Below, in pieces: positions 1 through 12,300 of a DNA stretch of 64,000 nt; position 1 is the first letter of the stretch, and each line of letters starts with the position of its first letter. A program made the position numbers and the translations under genes. Origin of the DNA: Neopusillimonas maritima (GTDB lineage Bacteria; Pseudomonadota; Gammaproteobacteria; Burkholderiales; Burkholderiaceae_B). Location of the stretch: positions 932,337 through 996,336 of the forward strand of contig NZ_NQOU01000001.1 of assembly GCF_003576595.1 (NCBI RefSeq), given 5' to 3'. The notes beneath the pieces are model-generated. The model saw nothing but the letters and a program-made list of their open reading frames with translations. It made no database searches and was not told the DNA's origin.

Positions 1-1026
1 ATTTATTTCAAGGCCGATTGCGCCCGTTGGCTGGAAGGCCGCAATCTGGGGGTCATCTACGTCAAAAATGACAAACTGCGTGGGTTCTTTCGCATGGTGC
101 GTAGTGGCGAAGCCGGCTTTTTGGTGGTGAATACAGTGGGCGACGTTAACCGGCCTCAGGCTCACAACATTGCCGACGCGATCACCCCTGAGCTGGCCGA
201 AGAACTGGTGCGCGAGGGCATCGGCGACGCCAATGTGAAAATTGTCATCGAAGATATTGCGCGTTGGCGCGCCGTTGCCGACGTCGCCGCCACATTTTCA
301 AACCGGCGCGTATTTCTTGCCGGTGATGCGGCCCATACCATGCCACCTACAGGGGGGTTCGGCGGCAACACCGGCGTGCAAGACATGCACAACCTGTGCT
401 GGAAACTGGCACTGGTGTTGAAGGGTGTCGCCGCGCCTGCACTCCTCGACACCTACGACGCGGAACGCCGCCCGGTGGCGGCCTTAACCGTGGAACAAGC
501 CTACACCCGTTATGTGCTCAGGATCCACCCTGAACGCGACCGTGCAGGCATGCAACCGTTTGTTGACGACCTCAACATGGAAATCGGTTATTTGTACCGG
601 TCCTCGGCAATAGCGCCGATTAGGAACGACCATGCCCTTGTTTATGAGGACCCGCGCACTGCAGCAGGCAGGCCGGGAAGCCGAGCCCCCCATCTCTTGC
701 TCGAGCAGAACGGCAACACGGTTTCGGTACTTGACCTGGCATCAAAGCATCATGTCCTGCTGGTTGGCCCCGACGGCGCCAACTGGGCCAATGCAACACG
801 ACACGCCGCAAGTGCCATGCATATTCCCCTCGACACACACATCCTGAACCCGCAAAGCGTATCCCCTGAAACGATCGAACAGTTTACGCATCGGTACCAA
901 GTATCCCAAAGCGGAGCCGTCCTGATCCGACCCGACGGGTTTATTGCGTGGAAGGCAACATCGAATCAAAACGCGCAAGAGGATTTCATGAAAGATGTGT
1001 TGATCTGCGTCATGGGGAAAGGTTGA
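1..1026 (+). CDS. FAD-dependent aromatic-ring monooxygenase, C-terminal part (5' end outside window)
   Basis: The frame is open from base 1, so this is the last 341 residues of a gene that begins upstream. The GD motif of class A flavoprotein hydroxylases (VFLAGDAAHTMPP, near visible residues 104-116, followed by GGFGGNTGVQD) binds the FAD ribityl chain. Residues from about 225 to the end look like the thioredoxin-fold C-terminal domain of the phenol hydroxylase/TfdB/MhpA group, including a GRPGSRAPH stretch at its start. The family hydroxylates phenols or polyketides with NAD(P)H and oxygen in the cytoplasm. The N-terminal FAD GxGxxG motif and the substrate pocket are not visible, so the substrate cannot be named. 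The antiporter gene follows 74 bases later on the same strand. Confidence 0.85.
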   Translation: MYFKADCARWLEGRNLGVIYVKNDKLRGFFRMVRSGEAGFLVVNTVGDVNRPQAHNIADAITPELAEELVREGIGDANVKIVIEDIARWRAVADVAATFSNRRVFLAGDAAHTMPPTGGFGGNTGVQDMHNLCWKLALVLKGVAAPALLDTYDAERRPVAALTVEQAYTRYVLRIHPERDRAGMQPFVDDLNMEIGYLYRSSAIAPIRNDHALVYEDPRTAAGRPGSRAPHLLLEQNGNTVSVLDLASKHHVLLVGPDGANWANATRHAASAMHIPLDTHILNPQSVSPETIEQFTHRYQVSQSGAVLIRPDGFIAWKATSNQNAQEDFMKDVLICVMGKG

Positions 1027-1100
1027 TTCAGGGTTCAGATTCCGCGCAACATAGCCTAAACTGAGCATAAATTTCCCACACCCCCCGTTTACAAAAAACG

Positions 1101-2765
1101 ATGCCTGAAATTTATGCTGAATTCGCCCTCATACTGATTATTGCCGCGATTGCCGGCGCCCTTGGGCTTAAGCTTAAGCAACCGTTAATCATCACGTACA
1201 TTGTTGTCGGTATTCTTGTAGGGCCTGCGGCATTCGGCTTTGTTTCCGCGCACTCCCAAATTGAACTGCTGGCCCAAATTGGTATTACGGTACTGCTTTT
1301 TCTGGTCGGCTTGAAGCTCGATTTGAAGCAAGTCCGGCAACTTGGGCCGGTTGCTTTGGCAACCGGTCTGGGCCAATTGACTTTCACCATTATCATTGGC
1401 TTCGCACTGATCCTGCTACTGGGTAAGCCTGCCGTAGAAGCCCTTTACGTGGCGGTCGCTCTAACCTTCTCCAGCACGATTATTATCATCAAGCTTCTTT
1501 CAGACAAGCGTGAACTTGACTCACTGCACGGCCGTATCGCCGTGGGCTTCCTTATTGTTCAAGACCTTGCCGTTGTGATTGCCATGATGGTCATGAGTGC
1601 GCTTGGCATGGAACACAACACCACCAGTGACGCAATGCTGGTGGGCTTGTTGATGTTGAAAATACTCACAGCAGCGGTCTGCATGTATGCACTCATAAAA
1701 TGGGTACTGCCACAAGTCATCGGCGCCATGGCGCGTTCGCAAGAACTTTTACTTGTTTTTGCCATGGCACTGGGCACTGGCCTGGCCGCTGTGGGTGAAT
1801 GGGCGGGCTTTAGCAAAGAGGCTGGGGCGTTCCTGGCCGGATTTGCACTGGCATCCTCGGGCTATCGCGACGCTATTAACGCCCGGCTTTCAGGTATTAA
1901 AGACTTTCTGCTGCTATTCTTTTTTATTCACCTTGGGTCGCAGCTGGACTTCACAATTTTAGGCGACGAACTGTTTTCGTCGGCCATTTTGTCTGCCTTC
2001 GTTCTAATCGGCAACCCTCTTATTGTGCTGGCGATCATGGGCTACATGGGTTATCGAAAACGTACCGGCTTCATGGCCGGCTTAACCGTTGCCCAAATCA
2101 GCGAGTTCTCTATTATTTTTATCGCCATGGGAATTTCCATGGGCCATGTGGGTCAAAGCGCGCTCGGGCTCACCACCTTGGTTGGCCTGATTACGATTGC
2201 TTTATCGACCTACATGATTCTGTATTCCCAGAAACTTTACAGCGTACTCTCCCCTTTACTTTCACCGTTCGAGCGCCACAACCCATATCGTGAACTGGCG
2301 GTGGAGCAAGACAGCGACAACGAAATACGGCCCGACGTTATTGTGTTCGGCCTGGGTCGATACGGCACGCGTTTGGCGCATGGCTTAAAACATGCCGGCC
2401 TGAAAGTCGTAGGTGTCGATTTCGACCCGCAAACTGCACAAGCAAACCGGCGCCACGGCATTCCCGTGCACTACGGCGACGGGGCCGACGAAGAGTTTAT
2501 TGAAACACTGCCCTTGCATCCTGAAACCTGGGTCATCAGCACTTTGCCGGACCTGGAAGCAAACATGAATCTGCTACGCATTTTGCGCAAGCATTACCCC
2601 CAGGAGCAAGTTGCAATTGTGGCCCGCGACGAGCACTATCGTCATTTGCTAGAACAGCTCGGCGCGACCAAAGTATTCTTCCCCATTAACGATGCGGTTG
2701 ATTACACCATTGAATCCATGACCCAACTCATTCATGCAAAGGCTTGTGCCCCGCAAACTCAATGA
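1101..2765 (+). CDS. Kef-type (CPA2) cation:proton antiporter with RCK/TrkA-N domain
   Basis: This 554-residue protein has about 12 hydrophobic segments over residues 1-385, as in KefB/KefC/YbaL antiporters (family CPA2, inner membrane). A soluble TrkA-N (RCK) domain starts near residue 411 with the nucleotide-binding motif VFGLGRYG followed by an acidic residue (VGVDFDP), the pattern of an NAD(H)-binding Rossmann fold. The family exchanges K+ or Na+ for protons, and the RCK domain gates transport by nucleotide binding. ATG at 1101 begins directly with the first membrane segment. The stop codon overlaps the start of the GGDEF gene by 4 bases (ATGA), so the two are probably translationally coupled. 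Which cation is moved cannot be told. No KefF/KefG-type ancillary gene is adjacent. Confidence 0.9.
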   Translation: MPEIYAEFALILIIAAIAGALGLKLKQPLIITYIVVGILVGPAAFGFVSAHSQIELLAQIGITVLLFLVGLKLDLKQVRQLGPVALATGLGQLTFTIIIGFALILLLGKPAVEALYVAVALTFSSTIIIIKLLSDKRELDSLHGRIAVGFLIVQDLAVVIAMMVMSALGMEHNTTSDAMLVGLLMLKILTAAVCMYALIKWVLPQVIGAMARSQELLLVFAMALGTGLAAVGEWAGFSKEAGAFLAGFALASSGYRDAINARLSGIKDFLLLFFFIHLGSQLDFTILGDELFSSAILSAFVLIGNPLIVLAIMGYMGYRKRTGFMAGLTVAQISEFSIIFIAMGISMGHVGQSALGLTTLVGLITIALSTYMILYSQKLYSVLSPLLSPFERHNPYRELAVEQDSDNEIRPDVIVFGLGRYGTRLAHGLKHAGLKVVGVDFDPQTAQANRRHGIPVHYGDGADEEFIETLPLHPETWVISTLPDLEANMNLLRILRKHYPQEQVAIVARDEHYRHLLEQLGATKVFFPINDAVDYTIESMTQLIHAKACAPQTQ

Positions 2766-3790
2766 ATTTTATCGAACCGCGCACATTAGCCTTCATCATC
2801 AGCGTGCTCACGGCACTGAGCGCACTCATCCTTCTGGCAATGCGCCAAAGCTTTTCCGCAACCGTTCGGGGTGTCAACAGTTGGACAATCGGTATCTGGA
2901 TATTCCTGATTTGTAGCTTGCTCTTCAATTTCCGAGGACAACTGCATCCGTTGCTCAGTGTTGTGCTGGCCAACCTGCTTTTAATCATCAGCCTGCTGCT
3001 CATGATAAGCGGATTACTGCATTATCACGGCCGTCGGCTAAGACACCATGGACTCATCGGCATCGCCACAGTCGCCTTTACCGCCGTTATAGTCTGGTTC
3101 ACACTCGTTCAGCCCAATTTTCAATTTCGCCTTGTTTTTGTTGCCGGCATCCTGGCGTTCATTTTGGCCGGACTCGGCTACCTGGCCTTGCACGGCCGTC
3201 CCGTTACAACAGGTCGTTTTGTAACGGGTGCGGCATTTCTGTTGGGCGCCGTCACGTGCTTTTTGCGTGCCCTGAGTGTGACTTTAAATTTTGATCGACC
3301 CAATACCTTTTTTGATTTAAGCAGCCTTCAGGTGCTCTACCTGGGCGCCTTCAGCGTGACATTTTTTATCGGCACACTGGGGTTCATTCTGATGATTAAC
3401 GAACGCCTCAGAGAAATACTGCAATACAACGCAGAGCACGATGAATTGTCGGCAGCCCTGACACGACGCGCCTTCTTCGAAAAAACTAAAGCAGAACTAT
3501 CAAACAGCCGAAAATCCGGAAAACCAGTGTCCGTCCTCATTCTGGATCTTGATAACTTCAAACAAATCAATGACGCTTACGGCCACCATTTCGGCGATCA
3601 AGTCATTGTGGATTTTTGCGATACGGTACGCTCTGTGTTGCGCCCTAACGATGTATTAGGGCGATACGGCGGCGAAGAATTTGTCGTTTTGTTGCCCGAA
3701 ACCGATAGCCTGCTTATTCGCGCCGACAAAGCGCTGTACCGTGCAAAAGGCCAAGGCCGTGACCGCATTGAAGTGGCGCAAAGCAACTGA
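2762..3790 (+). CDS. Membrane GGDEF protein with an internally shortened catalytic domain
   Basis: I chose ATG 2762, which overlaps the antiporter stop as ATGA, over a TTG six codons earlier; this gives 342 residues. Residues 1-215 hold about seven hydrophobic segments (MASE-like sensor region). The GGDEF domain follows from about residue 222: HDELSAALTRRAF, the metal-binding LDLDNFKQIND, and an intact GGEEF at 303-307. After LLPETD the sequence goes straight to SLLIRADKALYRAKGQGRD, which normally lies about 57 residues after GGEEF; here the gap is 9. About 48 residues, including the strand with the usual SIGVA motif, are missing in frame. Known GGDEF domains make cyclic-di-GMP. Whether this one folds or works is doubtful. 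No EAL or HD-GYP domain is present. Confidence 0.85.
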   Translation: MNFIEPRTLAFIISVLTALSALILLAMRQSFSATVRGVNSWTIGIWIFLICSLLFNFRGQLHPLLSVVLANLLLIISLLLMISGLLHYHGRRLRHHGLIGIATVAFTAVIVWFTLVQPNFQFRLVFVAGILAFILAGLGYLALHGRPVTTGRFVTGAAFLLGAVTCFLRALSVTLNFDRPNTFFDLSSLQVLYLGAFSVTFFIGTLGFILMINERLREILQYNAEHDELSAALTRRAFFEKTKAELSNSRKSGKPVSVLILDLDNFKQINDAYGHHFGDQVIVDFCDTVRSVLRPNDVLGRYGGEEFVVLLPETDSLLIRADKALYRAKGQGRDRIEVAQSN

Positions 3791-3826
3791 ACGTGATTAA
3801 TTCTCTGTCATCAACAAGGTTTTGTT

Positions 3827-4855
3827 ATGCCCTTTAAGAACGCACGCAGTCATTCATCAACTAAAGAAAGCACCGACCATTCATTTGCGCTGAAAATCGC
3901 AATTGCACTTTTCGTCGGTGTATTTGGCCAGGCTGCTTTCGCAACACCTGCCGGGGCACCGCAACCCGCTCTGCGAGTTACCGAAATTTCACAAACAACC
4001 CACCCATTCGAAACCTTATATTGTGCCCGTCAACCAGCGCAATACCGGTTTCTGGGCGACGCCCTTGAGTTAGTCGTAAACAATGAAAGCCGCATTTTGA
4101 TGCCCGCCATGGCGGCGTCGGGCGCCCGTTATGTTGCCCCGGGCGACCCTACAACAGAGTTCTGGGGCAAAGGTGCATTGGCCAACGTTACCTGGTCAGA
4201 CCAAGCACTCCCTGTTTGCGCTCCGGCCGGCACCCTTATTCCGCCCTATAAAGCCTCTGGAAACGAGCCATTCTGGAGCCTGGCCTTTGATGGCTGGGAC
4301 GCCACCCTGACACAACCCGGCAAAGCGCCGCTTACGCAAAACGCCCAAATCAGCGACACCCGAACAAAGGGCCAAACCCTTGTAGCGGGCAGTGGCGCCA
4401 ATATGCTAAAGCTAACGGTGGAAGAAGCTTTATGCGTTGACACGATGAGCGGCATGTCCTACCCGCAACACGCCGAACTGCAATACCAATCAAACACATG
4501 GCAAGGTTGTGGCGGTGATCCGAACCGATTACTTCAAGGGGTAACCTGGCGGGTTGCGCAGTTAAACGGCCACGAAATAAACGCGCAGACAAGGCCGGAA
4601 ATCCATTTCATGCCCAATAACCGCATAGCCGGCAGCACCGGGTGCAACCGCTTCTTCGGCGAGTACGCACTCACCGGCGAAGGCATGCAAATAAAAGGCC
4701 TGGGCAGCACGCGCATGGCATGCAGCGAAAAGCTGATGACTCAGGAACACACCTTTCTTGGGCAGCTGAAAGACGTAAACGGGATATCTTTCGATACCGT
4801 CGATACCTTGATATTGAATACGCCCGAAGGTGAAATTCGGGCGACAGCGAATTAA
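3827..4855 (+). CDS. Secreted three-domain protein: MliC-like, COG3650-like and META/HslJ-like
   Basis: The protein has 342 residues. A hydrophobic segment at about 22-38 ending in AAFA looks like a signal peptide, so a periplasmic location is likely; there is no lipobox. Residues 58-131 match the MliC/PliC lysozyme-inhibitor pattern: YC at 65-66, the SGARY motif at 98-102, FWGKG at 112-116, and Cys131 as likely partner of Cys66. Residues about 143-230 carry the GNEPFWSL signature of COG3650 envelope proteins. Residues about 237-340 form a META (HslJ-type) domain: W..AQLNG, GSTGCNRFFGEY and TRMACSEKLMTQE. Known MliC proteins inhibit C-type lysozyme and HslJ is linked to novobiocin resistance. 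A combined envelope-protection role is inference. Confidence 0.75.
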   Translation: MPFKNARSHSSTKESTDHSFALKIAIALFVGVFGQAAFATPAGAPQPALRVTEISQTTHPFETLYCARQPAQYRFLGDALELVVNNESRILMPAMAASGARYVAPGDPTTEFWGKGALANVTWSDQALPVCAPAGTLIPPYKASGNEPFWSLAFDGWDATLTQPGKAPLTQNAQISDTRTKGQTLVAGSGANMLKLTVEEALCVDTMSGMSYPQHAELQYQSNTWQGCGGDPNRLLQGVTWRVAQLNGHEINAQTRPEIHFMPNNRIAGSTGCNRFFGEYALTGEGMQIKGLGSTRMACSEKLMTQEHTFLGQLKDVNGISFDTVDTLILNTPEGEIRATAN

Positions 4856-4986: not shown

Positions 4987-5952
4987 TCAGCGGTCGCGAT
5001 CAACAGCAAACGAGCAGAATTTTAGCAAAGATTCCTGCGCCGCAGAAGCAGGAAACAAACCAAGCTGCTCACGCGCCAGCTCGGCTTCTTCCACGGCCGT
5101 TTCACGTGTGTACTGCAAGGCATCGGTTTCCTGAATAGCATGCGCCACGGCCGTGAAATCGCCGTCGCCGGTGCGAATGGCTTCCTGAATAAACGCCCGC
5201 TGCTGCGCCGACCCCACCTCCATGGCACGAATCAAGGGCAACGTGGGCTTGCCTTCACGTAAATCGTCGCCCACATTTTTACCCAATGCGGCGGCGTCAC
5301 CTTCGTAATCAAGCGCATCGTCAATTAACTGGAAGGCCGTGCCGATATGCCTGCCATAAGCCGCCGCAGCCGCTTCCTGTTCGGGTGAGGCATGCGCCAC
5401 AATGGCACCCACCTGTGCTGCGGCTTCAAACAACTTCGCTGTTTTATAACGCACCACCTGCAAGTAACGCTCGAGCGACACGTCGGGGTCATGCACATTC
5501 AACAACTGCAGCACTTCGCCCTCGGCAATAATGGTGGTGGCTTTGGAAAAAACCTGCATCACCCGCATGGAGTCGGCCTCCACCATCATTTCAAAAGAGC
5601 GCGAATACAGGTAATCACCCACCAGTACGCTGGCCGCATTACCGAATACCGCATTGGCGGTGCTACGGCCGCGCCGCAAGTCGGATTCGTCGACAACATC
5701 GTCGTGCAGCAAAGTGGATGTATGAATGAACTCAACCACAGCAGCCAGCAAATGATGCATGGCCCCTTCGTATCCCAGCGCCCGCGCCACCATCAGGAGC
5801 ATGGCCGGCCGCATACGCTTGCCGCCGGCCTGAATAATGTAATCACCAACGGTACGAATCAGTACGACATCGGAGTTCAGGCGTTCCCGAATAACCGCAT
5901 CGACGGCTTTCATGTCTTCGTTAATGGGGCTGAGCAACTCGGAGATATTCAA
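4987..5952 (-). CDS. ispB: Octaprenyl diphosphate synthase
   Basis: This trans-prenyltransferase makes the C40 side chain of ubiquinone from farnesyl and isopentenyl diphosphates in the cytoplasm. It carries the first Asp-rich motif DDVVDESDLRRG, the second Asp-rich motif IDDALDYEGD, and GGKRMRP near the N-terminus. I chose the TTG start at 5952 (321 residues, beginning MNISELLSPINEDM) because it lines up with the known IspB N-terminus; a GAG lies six bases upstream. An upstream in-frame ATG at 6030 would add 26 residues that family members lack. The gene is divergent from the DUF815 ATPase gene. The window also has ubiB, ubiJ and ubiE, but they are 30 kb away. Confidence 0.93.
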   Translation of the reverse strand: MNISELLSPINEDMKAVDAVIRERLNSDVVLIRTVGDYIIQAGGKRMRPAMLLMVARALGYEGAMHHLLAAVVEFIHTSTLLHDDVVDESDLRRGRSTANAVFGNAASVLVGDYLYSRSFEMMVEADSMRVMQVFSKATTIIAEGEVLQLLNVHDPDVSLERYLQVVRYKTAKLFEAAAQVGAIVAHASPEQEAAAAAYGRHIGTAFQLIDDALDYEGDAAALGKNVGDDLREGKPTLPLIRAMEVGSAQQRAFIQEAIRTGDGDFTAVAHAIQETDALQYTRETAVEEAELAREQLGLFPASAAQESLLKFCSFAVDRDR

Positions 5953-6089
5953 GGCAAACTCAAAATATTTGGATAAAACGGCGGAAAAGCCAAGTCCCTG
6001 ATTATACGGTGTCATGCGACCCGTTCGCATGACAGGTCCAAAATTGGCGATAATGGGGGTTTGTCGAGATACTGATCAAGAAGCACACT

Positions 6090-6971
6090 ATGCCGGAAAA
6101 CACTGCAAACAATGTCGACCTGGCTTCGCTCATGCAGCGGGCCAACCGTGTTCTTGCGCAACTGGAGGCCTGGCTGCCACCGGCGCCCCCCGAGGTCGAT
6201 TGGTCGGCCCATGCCTATCGCTGGCGCAAACGCGGCAGCCGCGGCTGGCTTGATGCCGTGCATAATATCTCGAAAATAAAAACCAACGATCTCCAGCATA
6301 TTGAGCGTCAGAAAGGCGTTATCGACCGCAACACCCGCTTCTTTTTAGCCGGTAAACCCGCGAACAATGTGCTCATGACCGGCGCACGAGGCACTGGAAA
6401 AAGCTCTTTGGTCAAAGCCATGCTTGCCCTTTATGCCGACCAGGGACTCAGACTTATTGAGGTCGATAAATCCGACCTGTCCGACCTGAGCGACATTGTG
6501 GAACAGGTTCGTAAACGTCCGGAAAAATTCATAATTTTCTGCGACGATCTTTCTTTTGAAGAGGGCGAAGCCGGCTACAAGGCGCTGAAATCGGTGCTTG
6601 ATGGCTCAATTAACGATTCAGGCGACAACGTTTTAATTTACGCCACCTCAAACCGGCGCCACCTGATGCCTGAATACATGAGCGAAAACCTGGAAGCCAA
6701 GCACCAGCCGGATGGGGAAATTCATCCCGGCGAAACCGTTGAAGAGAAAATTTCCTTATCTGAGCGCTTCGGTATCTGGCTGTCGTTTTATCCATTCAAG
6801 CAAGATGATTACCTGGACATCGTGCATCATTGGTTGCACGAGCTCGGCTGCCCGGCGTCCGACATCGAGGCATGCCGCCTGGAGGCCCTGCAGTGGGCAC
6901 TGGAAAGGGGGTCGCGCTCGGGCCGTGTGGCCCATCAATTCGCCAAAGATTGGGCAGCCCGTCATGTCTAA
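6090..6971 (+). CDS. DUF815 family AAA-type ATPase
   Basis: The 293-residue protein has a Walker A motif GARGTGKS at residues 98-105 and a Walker B-like stretch IIFCDDLSFE with D152/D153. The later YATSNRRHLMPEYM segment is typical of DUF815 P-loop proteins. The cellular role of the family is not established. The last 8 bases overlap the start of the Nudix/ThiE-like gene, so translation is probably coupled. This DUF815-Nudix pairing is common near zapD and secA in betaproteobacteria (established knowledge). ATG 6090 follows the divergent ispB promoter region. Confidence 0.85.
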   Translation: MPENTANNVDLASLMQRANRVLAQLEAWLPPAPPEVDWSAHAYRWRKRGSRGWLDAVHNISKIKTNDLQHIERQKGVIDRNTRFFLAGKPANNVLMTGARGTGKSSLVKAMLALYADQGLRLIEVDKSDLSDLSDIVEQVRKRPEKFIIFCDDLSFEEGEAGYKALKSVLDGSINDSGDNVLIYATSNRRHLMPEYMSENLEAKHQPDGEIHPGETVEEKISLSERFGIWLSFYPFKQDDYLDIVHHWLHELGCPASDIEACRLEALQWALERGSRSGRVAHQFAKDWAARHV

Positions 6972-7929
6972 ACCTTTTATTGATGTCGCCGCCGGCCTGA
7001 TTTTGAAACCCGATGGCGCCTTATTGCTGGGCCAACGGCCCGCCGACAAACCGTGGCCGGGCTGGTGGGAACTCCCGGGCGGGAAAATCGAGGCCGGGGA
7101 AACCGTTCTGCAGGCCCTGGCGCGAGAGTTAAAGGAAGAACTGGACATTGAAGTAACCCACGCAACACCGTGGGTGACGTATGTCCATGAGTACCCAAAA
7201 AACATCGTGCGCCTGGCGTTTTGCAAGGTAACCGGTTGGAATGGAAACCCTACCGGCCTGGAAGGGCAAAACCTGGCCTGGGTCGATCCGCAGGCACCCA
7301 TAGCGGTTGGGCCGTTATTGCCGGCCACCGAACCCCCACTGCGTTGGCTGAAACTGCCTTCCCAGTACCTCGTCACAAGCATTCAACATCCTGAAAACCT
7401 TGAGCCTTATTTGGCAAAACTCAAAAAAGCTATTAATCGCGGCGTCCGCCTGGTTCAGTTTCGTGAACCCGAATGGGCGGCATCCGGGCACGCCGGCTCC
7501 CTGCATCAGGCTTTTGAGCACGTCCTGGCTGTTTGCCGGGCAACAGGGGCACAATGCTTGTTAAACAGTGTTCACCCTCAGGCATGGTGGGCACAAGCCG
7601 ACGGTGTTCATCTTCGGGCGCAAGACATGCTAAGTTTCAAACGGGATGTATTTCCCGAACAATATTTATGCGGAGTTTCCGTTCATAATCAGGCCGAACT
7701 GGAACAGGCAAAGCAGCTTGATGCCGACTTTGTTGTCTTGGGCCATGTATGCCCCACTCCCTCTCACCCCCTGGAAAGCGCCATGGGCTGGGCAGAATTT
7801 GCGGAACTGGCCGGCCAAGCTGGGCGCCCGGTTTTTGCCATTGGCGGGCAGTCTGCCCAAACCATGGCAATAGCGCAAGAACACGGAGCGCATGGCATTG
7901 CCGCTATTCGCGGACTTCTGCCGGAATAG
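6964..7929 (+). CDS. Nudix hydrolase (MutT-like) fused to a ThiE/TenI-like domain
   Basis: The start is ATG 6964 (MSKPFIDVAAG), inside the last codons of the DUF815 gene. Residues 1-128 are a MutT-type Nudix domain. The Nudix box fits G40-x5-E46-x7-R54E55-x-x-E58E59, and the usual glycine after EE is Asp61 here, a mild deviation. Residues from about 131 to 321 resemble ThiE/TenI: VRLVQFRE, ADGVHLRAQD, CGVSVHN, VLGHVCPTPSHP and FAIGG. MutT hydrolyses 8-oxo-dGTP in nucleotide-pool cleansing. The ThiE-like half has Arg where thiamine phosphate synthases usually have Gly after DGVHL, so it may not make thiamine phosphate. Nudix-ThiE fusions are known in proteobacteria; the joint function is unsettled. 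Confidence 0.88.
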   Translation: MSKPFIDVAAGLILKPDGALLLGQRPADKPWPGWWELPGGKIEAGETVLQALARELKEELDIEVTHATPWVTYVHEYPKNIVRLAFCKVTGWNGNPTGLEGQNLAWVDPQAPIAVGPLLPATEPPLRWLKLPSQYLVTSIQHPENLEPYLAKLKKAINRGVRLVQFREPEWAASGHAGSLHQAFEHVLAVCRATGAQCLLNSVHPQAWWAQADGVHLRAQDMLSFKRDVFPEQYLCGVSVHNQAELEQAKQLDADFVVLGHVCPTPSHPLESAMGWAEFAELAGQAGRPVFAIGGQSAQTMAIAQEHGAHGIAAIRGLLPE

Positions 7930-9307
7930 GCTGTTGCCATCCTCCACCCAGCGCGGCAATCAACTGCACCGCAGCAATAAGACGGTCTGCGCTTAAAGAT
8001 AATGAAGCGCGCTCAGCCGCCAGGGCGGTCGTTTCAACCTGCACGACACTCAGGTAATCAATCAGGCCTGCGTCGTACTGGTTCAGCGTTAAGCGCAATG
8101 ACGCTCTTGCCGCATCCAGCGCCCGCTGCTGGCTCTGCTGTTCGCGCGCCAAACTATTCAGATCAACCAGATAGTCCTCAACTTCCCGTAATGCAGTCAA
8201 CACCGTCTGCCTGTACACAGCAACCAGGGCCTCGTAACCCGCACGCGCTTGTTCTATTCGGGCTTCGCGCGCTCCGCCATCAAAAATTGTCATCGCCAAC
8301 GCAGGGCCGAGCGACCAGAAACTAAAAGGCGCACTCAACCACTGCGCCCATTGGCCCGCTCTATAACCACCCTCGGCCGTTAAGGTTAAGTTGGGGAACC
8401 AGGCCGACTGCGCCACGCCAATCTGCGCATTGGCCGCAGCCACTTGCCGCTCAGCCGACGCAATATCAGGTCGACGCTGCAAGAGCTCGGACGGCAAGCC
8501 CGCAGGAATGCTCGGAACGGCAACCGATACCGGCTCGGACGGCAACGAAAATTGTGAAGGTGGCTTGCCAAGTAAAACCGCCATTGCATTTTCCAGCTGC
8601 GCCCGCTGACGCCGCAGGGCTTGTTGCTGGGTTAATGCGTTATTCAATTGCACACGCGCCGATTCAACATCAAGTTGGGCTGCGACCCCAGCATTCAGCC
8701 GGTTCTCGGTTGTTTGCAGGGAACGACGATAAGCCTCAACCGTTTGCTCGTATAACCGCAACTCGGCATCGAACGAACGTAAACGGAAATAGGTTTGGGC
8801 CAAAGTGGACTGCACGCTTAACCGGGTACCCGCCAACTCTGCCTCACTGGCCTGCAATTGCGCAGACTCCGCCTCCACCGTACGTCGAATGCGCCCCCAT
8901 AAGTCCGGCTCCCAACTTACCGTACCCGCCACACGATACTGTTGCGACACCCCCTCCGCACCGGAACCCGATCGGGTAAAGCCTGCATTGGCATTCACCG
9001 AAGGAAAAAACTGGGCTTCACTTTCACGCAATAAGGCCTGCGCTTGTCGATACTGCGCTTCGAACTGGGCAATCGTTTGATTATTGACCAGTACCTCATC
9101 CATCAACCCGTTCAGTACGGGGTCATCGAAAAGCGTCCACCAATCGGCGCGGAGCGCCGCAGCATTGGGCTGTGCGCGCACCCAACCTTGCTGATTTTCA
9201 TACTGTTGACCCAGTTCAATGCCGGGTTCCGTGTAATCAGGGCCTACGGTGCATCCCGCCATTGTCAGCGACAATAAGGTCGCCAAAAACCATTTAACTC
9301 TTTCCAT
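7904..9307 (-). CDS. RND efflux outer-membrane lipoprotein (NodT/OprM family)
   Basis: The start is ATG 9307, giving 467 residues beginning MERVKWFLATLLSLTMAGC. The MAGC lipobox marks an acylated Cys near residue 19, so this is an outer-membrane lipoprotein channel. Two OEP repeats follow with long coiled-coil helices (for example LQASEAELAGTRLSVQ and QLNNALTQQQAL). It is the last gene of the efflux operon, with its ATG 2 bases after the stop of the second permease. Its 3' end overlaps the tail of the convergent Nudix gene by 26 bases. It supplies the exit duct for the two permeases and the adaptor. The exported drug cannot be inferred. Confidence 0.93.
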   Translation of the reverse strand: MERVKWFLATLLSLTMAGCTVGPDYTEPGIELGQQYENQQGWVRAQPNAAALRADWWTLFDDPVLNGLMDEVLVNNQTIAQFEAQYRQAQALLRESEAQFFPSVNANAGFTRSGSGAEGVSQQYRVAGTVSWEPDLWGRIRRTVEAESAQLQASEAELAGTRLSVQSTLAQTYFRLRSFDAELRLYEQTVEAYRRSLQTTENRLNAGVAAQLDVESARVQLNNALTQQQALRRQRAQLENAMAVLLGKPPSQFSLPSEPVSVAVPSIPAGLPSELLQRRPDIASAERQVAAANAQIGVAQSAWFPNLTLTAEGGYRAGQWAQWLSAPFSFWSLGPALAMTIFDGGAREARIEQARAGYEALVAVYRQTVLTALREVEDYLVDLNSLAREQQSQQRALDAARASLRLTLNQYDAGLIDYLSVVQVETTALAAERASLSLSADRLIAAVQLIAALGGGWQQPIPAEVRE

Positions 9308-9309
9308 CG

Positions 9310-12300
9310 TTATTCCTGTATTGCAGGTGCATGCTTGGCCTGTCTTGCCCTGAACCAAAGCCGTAATCGATCCAGATACAAATAAACCACCGGTGTCGTA
9401 TAAAGCGTTAAAACCTGGCTCAACACAAGACCGCCGACAATGGTAATACCCAGTGGTTGGCGCAGCTCCACGCCGGCCCCGGTGGCCAAAACCAGCGGCA
9501 AAGCGCCGAAAATAGCAGACAAGGTGGTCATCATAATGGGGCGAAAACGGATCAGGCATGCTTCATAAATGGCTTGTCGCGGCGTCAGTCCACGCTGACG
9601 TTCTGCATGTAAAGCAAAGTCCACCATCATGATGGCGTTCTTTTTCACGATACCAATCAATAAAAACACACCGATCAGCGCAATCAACGAAAACTCATAG
9701 TCCAGCAACATCAGTGCCAGCAAGGCCCCTATGCCCGCAGACGGCAGCGTCGACAAAATCGTCAGCGGATGAATATAGCTTTCGTAAAGCATGCCCAGCA
9801 CTATGTACATGGTCAGTAGCGCCGCCAAAATAAGCCACGGTTGCTGATCCAATGATTCCTGCAACGCTTGCGCCGAACCTTGAAACACGCCCTGAAGTTC
9901 ATTGGTGGGAAGCCCCGTCCGGGCCAACGCCTCTTCAATGGCCTGCGTCGCCTCGCCCAGCGACACCCCCGGCGCCAAGCTGAACGAAACCGACTCTTCG
10001 GCCAACAAACCCTGGTGGCGCACGCGTAACGGCGCGGTGCCGACCTCGAACCGCGTAAACGACGCCAGCGGCACGCGATTGCCGTCTTGCGTGACGACCT
10101 GAACCAGCTTTAATGATTCCGCATCCTGGGCATACTCGGGCAACACCGACATCACCACCCGATACTGGTTCAAAGGGCCATAAATAACGGATACCTGTCG
10201 CTGGCTAAACGAATTGTTTAAGGTCGAAGCAATCAGCGCCATATCCACCCCCAGCCTTGTAGCAACTTCGCGGTCAATAATCAATTCAACGCGCCGACCT
10301 TTGTCTTCAATGTCACTTTCGACATCAACCAACTCAGGTAAACCCGCCATGGCCTGCTGCACGCGTGGCAACCATGTTTTCAAAAGATCCAGGTCAGAGG
10401 CCAATAAAGAGTACTCAAATGACGCCAGCCCCTGACGCCCTCCGACATGAACGTCTTGTTGCGGCACCAGAAAAAGGCGGGCGCCTGGTTCGTTGTTGAA
10501 TCTGCTACGCAAACGGTTGACTACGTCTGTGGCACTCACATCACGCTCATCAAATGGCTTTAGCTGTATCAACAAAAAACTAGAGTGGCTGCCCCCTCGT
10601 CCACCCGCAAAGCCAGTCACTGTGTCTACGGCCGGATCTTTTAACAACGCATTCCGGAATTTCTCGAGCTTGGGCAACATGGCCTGAAACGACGTACCCT
10701 GATCGACGCGGAAGAACCCCAACAACTGCCCGGTATCTTGCTGAGGGAAAAAACCTTTCGGCACGACCGAATACAAATAGACATTCAATCCTATTGTGCC
10801 CAACAGAATCAACAACGTGATCCGGCTATGGACCAAAGCCCAGTCGAGCGAACGTTGATAACCGCGCAAACACCAACGACCAACCGACAACAGGGCACGC
10901 TCCGCCCATGACTCACGCCGCCGTGCGCTGCGTTCACTTGCATGCGTCCTGTCTTGCGCACGCAGCCAGCGCGCACACATCATGGGCGTCAGAATCAATG
11001 ACAAAACCAGGGAAACGAGAATGGCGGCGGAAAGCGTCAGCGCGAACTCGCGAAACAACCGACCCGGAATCCCTCCCATTAACAAAATTGGAATAAATAC
11101 CGCCACCAACGACACACTCATGGCAACCACGGTAAACCCCACTTCACGCACACCACGAACGGCGGCGCGCACCGGGTTATAGCCTTTTTCGATATAGCGC
11201 ATGATGTTTTCAAGCACCACGATGGCATCGTCAACCACAAAGCCGGCAGCCACGATCATGGCCATCAACGACATGGTATTCAACGTAAACCCCATCCACA
11301 ACATCAGGCTAAACGTAGTGATAAGCGAGGCGGGTACAACAATACTGGGGATCACCGCCGCCCGTACCTGACGCAAGAATACGAGTACCACCAGCACCAC
11401 TAAAACGACTGCAACAAACAACGTGAATTGCGCTTCGGCAAGAGACTCACGAATACTGGGCGTTCGATCAACCGCAACCGACAAATTCACCTGTGCCGGA
11501 ACAAGACTTTGAAACGCAGGCATCTGGGCATGAATGGCGTCAACGGTTTCAATAATGTTGGCGGCGGGTTGGCGACGAATCACCAGCAACACGGCCTGCC
11601 GATCATTAAAAAAACCGGTATTGAATGCATCTTCAACGCCATCCTCTACCTTGGCCACGTCGTCTAACCGAATCGGCGCACCATCGCGCCAGGCCACAAT
11701 AAGCGGCCGGTATTGTTCGGCGCGGGTCATCTGGCTGCCGGAATTGATTTGCCAATGGTACTGATGATTCTCAATCACCCCCACAGGCCCCAAGGTGTTG
11801 GCCTGACTCAGCGCCTGGCGAACCTCGTCCAGCGCCACCCCGGCTGCAACCAGTGCCTGCGGATTCAAACTCACCCGCACAGCCGGCAGCGCGCTGCCAC
11901 CCACACTTACCTCGCCCACACCTGACACCTGCGCCAACTTCTGCGCAAGCACGGTCGACGCCAGATCATACAGTTCTCCCTGGGTGACGGTATCAGACGT
12001 CAACGCCAGCACCATAATGGGCGAAGAAGCCGGGTTCACTTTGTTATAGGTTGGGTTATCGCGCAAGCTTGACGGCAAAGAACCACGAGCTGCATTAATC
12101 GCCGCCTGAACATCGCGCGCCGCGCTGTTAATGTCACGGTTCAGGTCGAACACCAAAGAGATGCGGGTCGACCCTTCAGAGCTGCTTGAACTCATTTCCG
12201 TGACCCCGGCAATGGAGCCAAGCGACTGCTCGAGCGGCATCGCCACGCTCGAGGCCATCGTTTCCGGGCTGGCGCCGGCCATATTGGCTGTCACCGTAAT

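Follow-up and report, generated by a model that had tools for sequence, protein, structure and literature searches.

Does a GGDEF domain that keeps its catalytic motifs despite a partly missing core remain a diguanylate cyclase, and how did the missing part go? This question is raised by a membrane protein gene near the start of the window, by which we mean the whole 64,000-nucleotide stretch of DNA analysed. The first-pass annotation had described an open reading frame in which both ends of the domain were present and the middle was absent, through an in-frame loss of about 48 residues that would leave the fold either broken or remodelled. The frame and coordinates it gave are correct: the gene runs on the forward strand from an ATG at 2762 to a stop codon ending at 3790 (342 codons plus stop), and we found no second disruption of its reading frame. 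The features of the locus are collected in Table 1.

Table 1. Coordinates of the features at the shortened GGDEF locus (window positions)
Feature	Position	Strand	Basis and remarks
CPA2-like cation:proton antiporter, Na_H_Exchanger and TrkA-N	1101..2765	+	Pfam, over cut-off
Membrane GGDEF protein, internally shortened	2762..3790	+	342 aa; ORF, frame, Pfam; 383-aa orthologue in G003
N-terminal membrane region, residues 1-214	2762..3403	+	Seven hydrophobic segments, simple Kyte-Doolittle hydropathy
First part of GGDEF domain, kept, residues 224-315	3431..3706	+	Pfam; DLDNFKQIND, RPND, GGEEF
Deletion junction, sole remaining copy of 9-bp repeat ACCGATAGC	3701..3709	+	G003 comparison
C-terminal helix and tail LLIRADKALYRAKGQGRDRIEVAQSN, kept, residues 317-342	3710..3787	+	Sequence, G003 comparison; weak 5euh alignment
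META and MliC domain gene	3827-4855		Pfam; begins 36 bp past the GGDEF gene stop

A GGDEF domain without its middle

The N-terminal region matches no Pfam family above cut-off (DUF2070 reaches 12.5 bits against a cut-off of 30). The GGDEF profile of Pfam matches the protein with 109.3 bits (cut-off 23.8), and TIGR00254 does so with 117 (cut-off 37.4). The matched residues, 224-315, hold the metal/GTP site DLDNFKQIND, the I-site RPND and the GGEEF loop, and correspond to profile positions 1-92 of 161 only. At the other end of the gap, residues 315-339 align with the end of solved GGDEF domains (chain residues 139-163 of 5euh), in a separate second alignment that is weak on its own (11.7 bits, i-Evalue 1.1). 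The absence of the middle is equally visible in the spacing between the GGDEF and ADxALY-type motifs, which is 13 residues here and 54 to 66 (most commonly 59) in 134 of 135 distinct domains; this count covers tail-bearing domains from our collection with recognisable head, GGDEF and tail motifs, 40 hits lacking a recognisable tail, not deduplicated, having been left out. The source genome has 22 GGDEF matches, 21 of which extend to profile position 157-161, the shortened one ending at 92. All 24 matches in the sister genome G003 extend to 157-161.

G003, the single-contig genome of another species of the genus, provides a syntenic full-length orthologue of 383 residues with the same ATG, 93% identical in protein and 92% in DNA (948 of 1029 bases outside the gap). 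The two genes differ in length by one block of 123 bp with clean flanks, so that exactly 41 residues are missing, in frame, from the catalytic domain, after the GGEEF loop and before the ADKALYRAK helix. As the first-pass annotation had proposed, this is an in-frame deletion, and a clean one, and not a frameshift. The proposed size fits the family spacing roughly (59 against 13, a difference of 46), but the orthologue sets it at 41. The missing segment comprises what we take, from established knowledge of the fold, to be helix alpha3 and the core strand T-x-S-x-G; the lost columns include one with T in 40 of 43 aligned relatives, one with S in 42 and one with G in all 43. Compared with PleD-type GGDEF domains (PF00990, TIGR00254), the protein therefore shares the first 92 Pfam positions, the metal/GTP site, GGEEF, the I-site and the C-terminal KxxxR helix, whereas the 41 residues with alpha3 and the core strand, both elements of a complete GGDEF domain, are gone.

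The deletion was seen in one assembly only. Our genus sample consisted of five genomes, each species being represented in the genome collections by a single one. The first-pass annotation had named full-length orthologues from other strains as evidence that would count against its reading; a close full-length orthologue does exist, but in another species. In the three other congeners, we found only generic GGDEF-level matches to the protein (best E 1.5e-21 to 2.8e-21). A scan of genome contigs, which may omit records of the source genome or very near ones, gave no close orthologue among the best 80 of at least 579 confirmed relatives, and among the matches listed the top one was from Tepidimonas ignava (30% identity over residues 19-336). 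In the plasmid collection 4901 records matched, every one below 60% identity.

The turn at residues 229-236 (window 3446-3469) reads LSAALTRR in place of the usual LTGLxNRR, with S at a position that is T in 42 of the 43 relatives, and T at one that is N in 41. Since the intact orthologue in G003 has LSAALTRR too, this divergence is older than the deletion.

The deletion junction

In the G003 gene, the 9-bp sequence ACCGATAGC occurs twice as a perfect direct repeat, with one copy at gene position 940 and the other at 1063, a spacing of 123 bp. The stretch missing from our gene starts with one copy and stops just before the second; the window keeps one copy, at the junction, and nothing of the intervening sequence. 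The G003 gene has three 9-bp repeats whose copies are separated by less than 400 bp, 9 bp being the longest length found, and the ACCGATAGC pair is one of two such pairs that give an in-frame deletion. When all possible deletions of 30-399 bp in this gene were enumerated, 30 of 346,966 breakpoints (8.7e-5) had at least 9 bp of homology. The intact relative thus has the flanking repeats and the window a single copy, which argues for a short-repeat (slippage-type) deletion as the cause. The change was presumably a loss rather than a gain, since the segment is generally present in members of the family. We rejected programmed or reversible switching: now that the 123 bp and one copy of the repeat are lost, the segment could hardly be restored locally.

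There is a precedent in genes of cyclic-di-GMP (c-di-GMP) signalling. The available part of a study of experimental evolution in Pseudomonas attributes in-frame deletions in awsX and mwsR to direct repeats of 6 and 8 bp (PMC6324874). These wrinkly-spreader deletions resemble ours in being in frame, in involving short direct repeats (9 bp here) and in hitting a c-di-GMP gene; ours differs in that it occurs in a natural genome, spans 123 bp and removes part of a GGDEF catalytic core, so that, as far as the accessible text of that study allows a comparison, it should abolish activity rather than release it. Repeat length is a poor predictor of deletion rate, according to the portion of PMC8370652 at hand. 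Natural isolates offer a second parallel: the accessible part of PMC10333796 describes c-di-GMP turnover proteins that are truncated or have lost catalysis, with lineage- or strain-specific shortening within a large gene set; in the ycgG truncations reported there, however, the protein stays enzymatically functional, whereas here part of the catalytic domain is removed. A phrase search of the literature for natural deletions within a GGDEF domain, combined with c-di-GMP, returned none, which is not proof of their absence in print. The gene would then be a clean natural example of how a large, redundant set of GGDEF genes probably loses one of its members via repeat-mediated deletion.

Catalytic residues, predicted structure and selection

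Is what remains compatible with enzymatic activity? The available part of PMC6629876 lists D327, K332, N335, D344, position 370, K442 and R446 as catalytic positions of PleD. We mapped these onto our alignment (the mapping is ours, not that of the cited work), and all seven residues are kept, as D262, K267, N270, D279, E305, K329 and R333. The RxxD residues of the I-site are kept as well. The missing part is scaffold, not listed catalytic residues. In the ferredoxin-like order of the domain, the lost strand normally packs beside the metal-site strand. To judge from the sequence, diguanylate cyclase activity has in all likelihood been lost. Annotation based on motifs, finding GGEEF and the catalytic residues present, would nevertheless label the protein an active cyclase despite its partly missing core. 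Degenerate GGDEF receptors of the PelD/PopA type combine an intact RxxD I-site on a folded domain with a degenerate active site; set against that description, our protein keeps the I-site residues but has an incomplete fold and an active site that is not degenerate.

AlphaFold2 modelled the shortened domain (residues 207-342) with a mean pLDDT of 91.3 and a pTM of 0.79; the last four C-terminal blocks had pLDDT values of 85, 74, 80 and 70. The same procedure gave 94.1 and 0.87 for a full-length control, the relative L021 from Tepidimonas ignava. Confidence in the shortened model is biased because its alignment is made up of full-length relatives (43, from the 64 domain stretches of L021-L100), which steer the model. 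Helix 114-129 and strand 138-144 of the control are absent from it, and no last strand is predicted. A Foldseek search with this model returned GGDEF domains among its matches. The best-ranked structural match was SiaD (7e6g), where all 136 model residues were superposed on the stretch 83-263 of the chain (Z 16.5, rmsd 1.1); several other matches had an rmsd of 4-6 Å, ranging up to 6.1, and the best Z for the control was 25.7. The model looks like a canonical domain with a hole, its remaining elements in place, rather than a new compact fold. Being steered by full-length relatives, it cannot demonstrate that the real shortened protein folds. Of the two outcomes that had been offered for the fold, 'broken' agrees with the G003 comparison, the models and the alignment of relatives, all of which place a core strand and a helix in the gap; 'remodelled' draws no support from a model whose remaining elements stay where they lie in canonical GGDEF domains.

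In a comparison of the window with G003, synonymous differences number 31 in the GGDEF part and 28 in the membrane part, against 4 and 18 nonsynonymous ones (omega 0.03 and 0.20, respectively). For the whole gene omega is 0.104, and for its neighbours it is 0.067 (antiporter), 0.209 (META gene) and 0.162 (the part of the hydroxylase gene in the window). Had selection on the domain been absent during a fraction f of the window branch, roughly 68f additional nonsynonymous changes would be expected (29f-68f depending on dS). Given 4 such differences on both branches together, f should lie below about 0.14 to 0.32. So few nonsynonymous differences suggest either a recent deletion or continuing constraint on the short form. 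The count is compatible with both; recency requires no new function.

Weighing the explanations

We consider it very probable that one GGDEF gene is present here as a young loss-of-function allele, produced by a short-repeat deletion after the split from the G003 lineage. Its ancestor would have encoded a membrane-anchored GGDEF protein which, to judge by the catalytic residues that survive, once worked as a diguanylate cyclase. The two 9-bp direct repeats would have misaligned, through replication slippage or single-strand annealing, with the loss of 123 bp, once the lineage had parted from its sister species, and the resulting protein, for all its listed catalytic residues, would most likely be unable to fold or to act as a cyclase. 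Such a loss may be tolerable, since the genome has 21 further GGDEF matches, all of full length. One of 22 GGDEF matches would most likely have been inactivated in an ordinary way, by an in-frame deletion between repeats that is probably recent. Against a dead allele stands the high confidence of the model (pLDDT 91.3, pTM 0.79), although its last four blocks are lower and it is steered by its alignment; against a long-dead domain stands the strong purifying selection on the GGDEF part.

The shortened domain might instead be a functional non-enzymatic module under selection, acting as a c-di-GMP receptor via RPND or as a partner that inactivates an intact cyclase in a heterodimer. The R and D of the I-site and the seven PleD catalytic residues are kept, nonsynonymous differences in the domain are few, and degenerate GGDEF receptors exist, as far as the accessible literature describes them. 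We nevertheless hold this to be unlikely: the strand and helix that were lost are core elements of the domain, and a recent deletion, with neutral evolution over no more than about 14-32% of the branch (according to the dS used), predicts the low nonsynonymous count equally well. Long-standing GGDEF receptors, moreover, usually have degenerate active-site residues, and those of our protein are not degenerate. The boldest form of the idea, in which a selected non-catalytic module serves as a dominant-negative partner or as a c-di-GMP sensor on a membrane region beside a Kef-like antiporter, strikes us as very improbable; if true, it would be a switch from enzyme to regulator made by a single deletion event. 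An artefact of assembly or sequencing, or a variant confined to the sequenced culture, would account for a deletion found in just one assembly, of a genome in 26 contigs. The junction, however, is separated by about 84 kb from the nearer end of its 1.02-Mb contig, the flanks are clean and the frame is preserved, and a 9-bp repeat is too short to mislead common assemblers into misjoining reads; we think an artefact rather unlikely, marginally more so than a functional module in general. Least credible of all is a remodelled domain in which the C-terminal helix and the last strand substitute for the lost elements in a smaller ferredoxin-like fold. Read from the sequence, VVLLPETD, LLIRADKALYRAK and DRIEVA could in principle form strand, helix and strand, but the superposition on SiaD 7e6g puts the helix in its usual place and the last strand is not predicted. 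The exclusion is not a strong one, given the 4-6 Å rmsd of other structural matches and a model steered by full-length relatives.

Neighbouring genes

The start of the shortened gene overlaps the stop of the antiporter gene upstream in an ATGA, which suggests that the two genes form one transcript. The antiporter resembles Kef/YbaL, yet falls below the cut-offs of the NCBIfam models for Kef/YbaL. It is syntenic in G003 (97% identity); searches of the three other congeners found nothing for it at E <= 0.001. A tblastn search with it (E <= 1e-5) over the collected loci (L021-L129 and L140) matched only the G003 loci, the flanks searched being at most 4 kb (L021-L100) or 1.5 kb (L101-L129) and shorter at contig ends. 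The antiporter and GGDEF genes as a pair (1101-3790) are thus syntenic in G003, and neither has a specific match in the three congeners; they may have been gained or lost jointly.

The order hydroxylase, antiporter, GGDEF gene, META gene is common to the window and G003. The hydroxylase gene at the left edge of the window first appeared damaged, cut at an ATG at 94 and matching only the end of its main Pfam profile; read past the edge, it is an ordinary, intact gene of 537 aa in both species. The alignment with G003 spans positions 1 to 4849 and ends after the META gene, the fetched G003 stretch running about 10.6 kb further. Orthologues of the right-hand genes at 4987-6030, 6090-6971 and 7904-9559 were not found in that stretch, and from about 4850 on the gene order therefore seems to differ. 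About 1.7 kb to the left of the window lies a second GGDEF gene (L195, G000:C11:930171-930632) with a full-length domain match, and it has a counterpart at the matching place in G003 (1213258-1213719).
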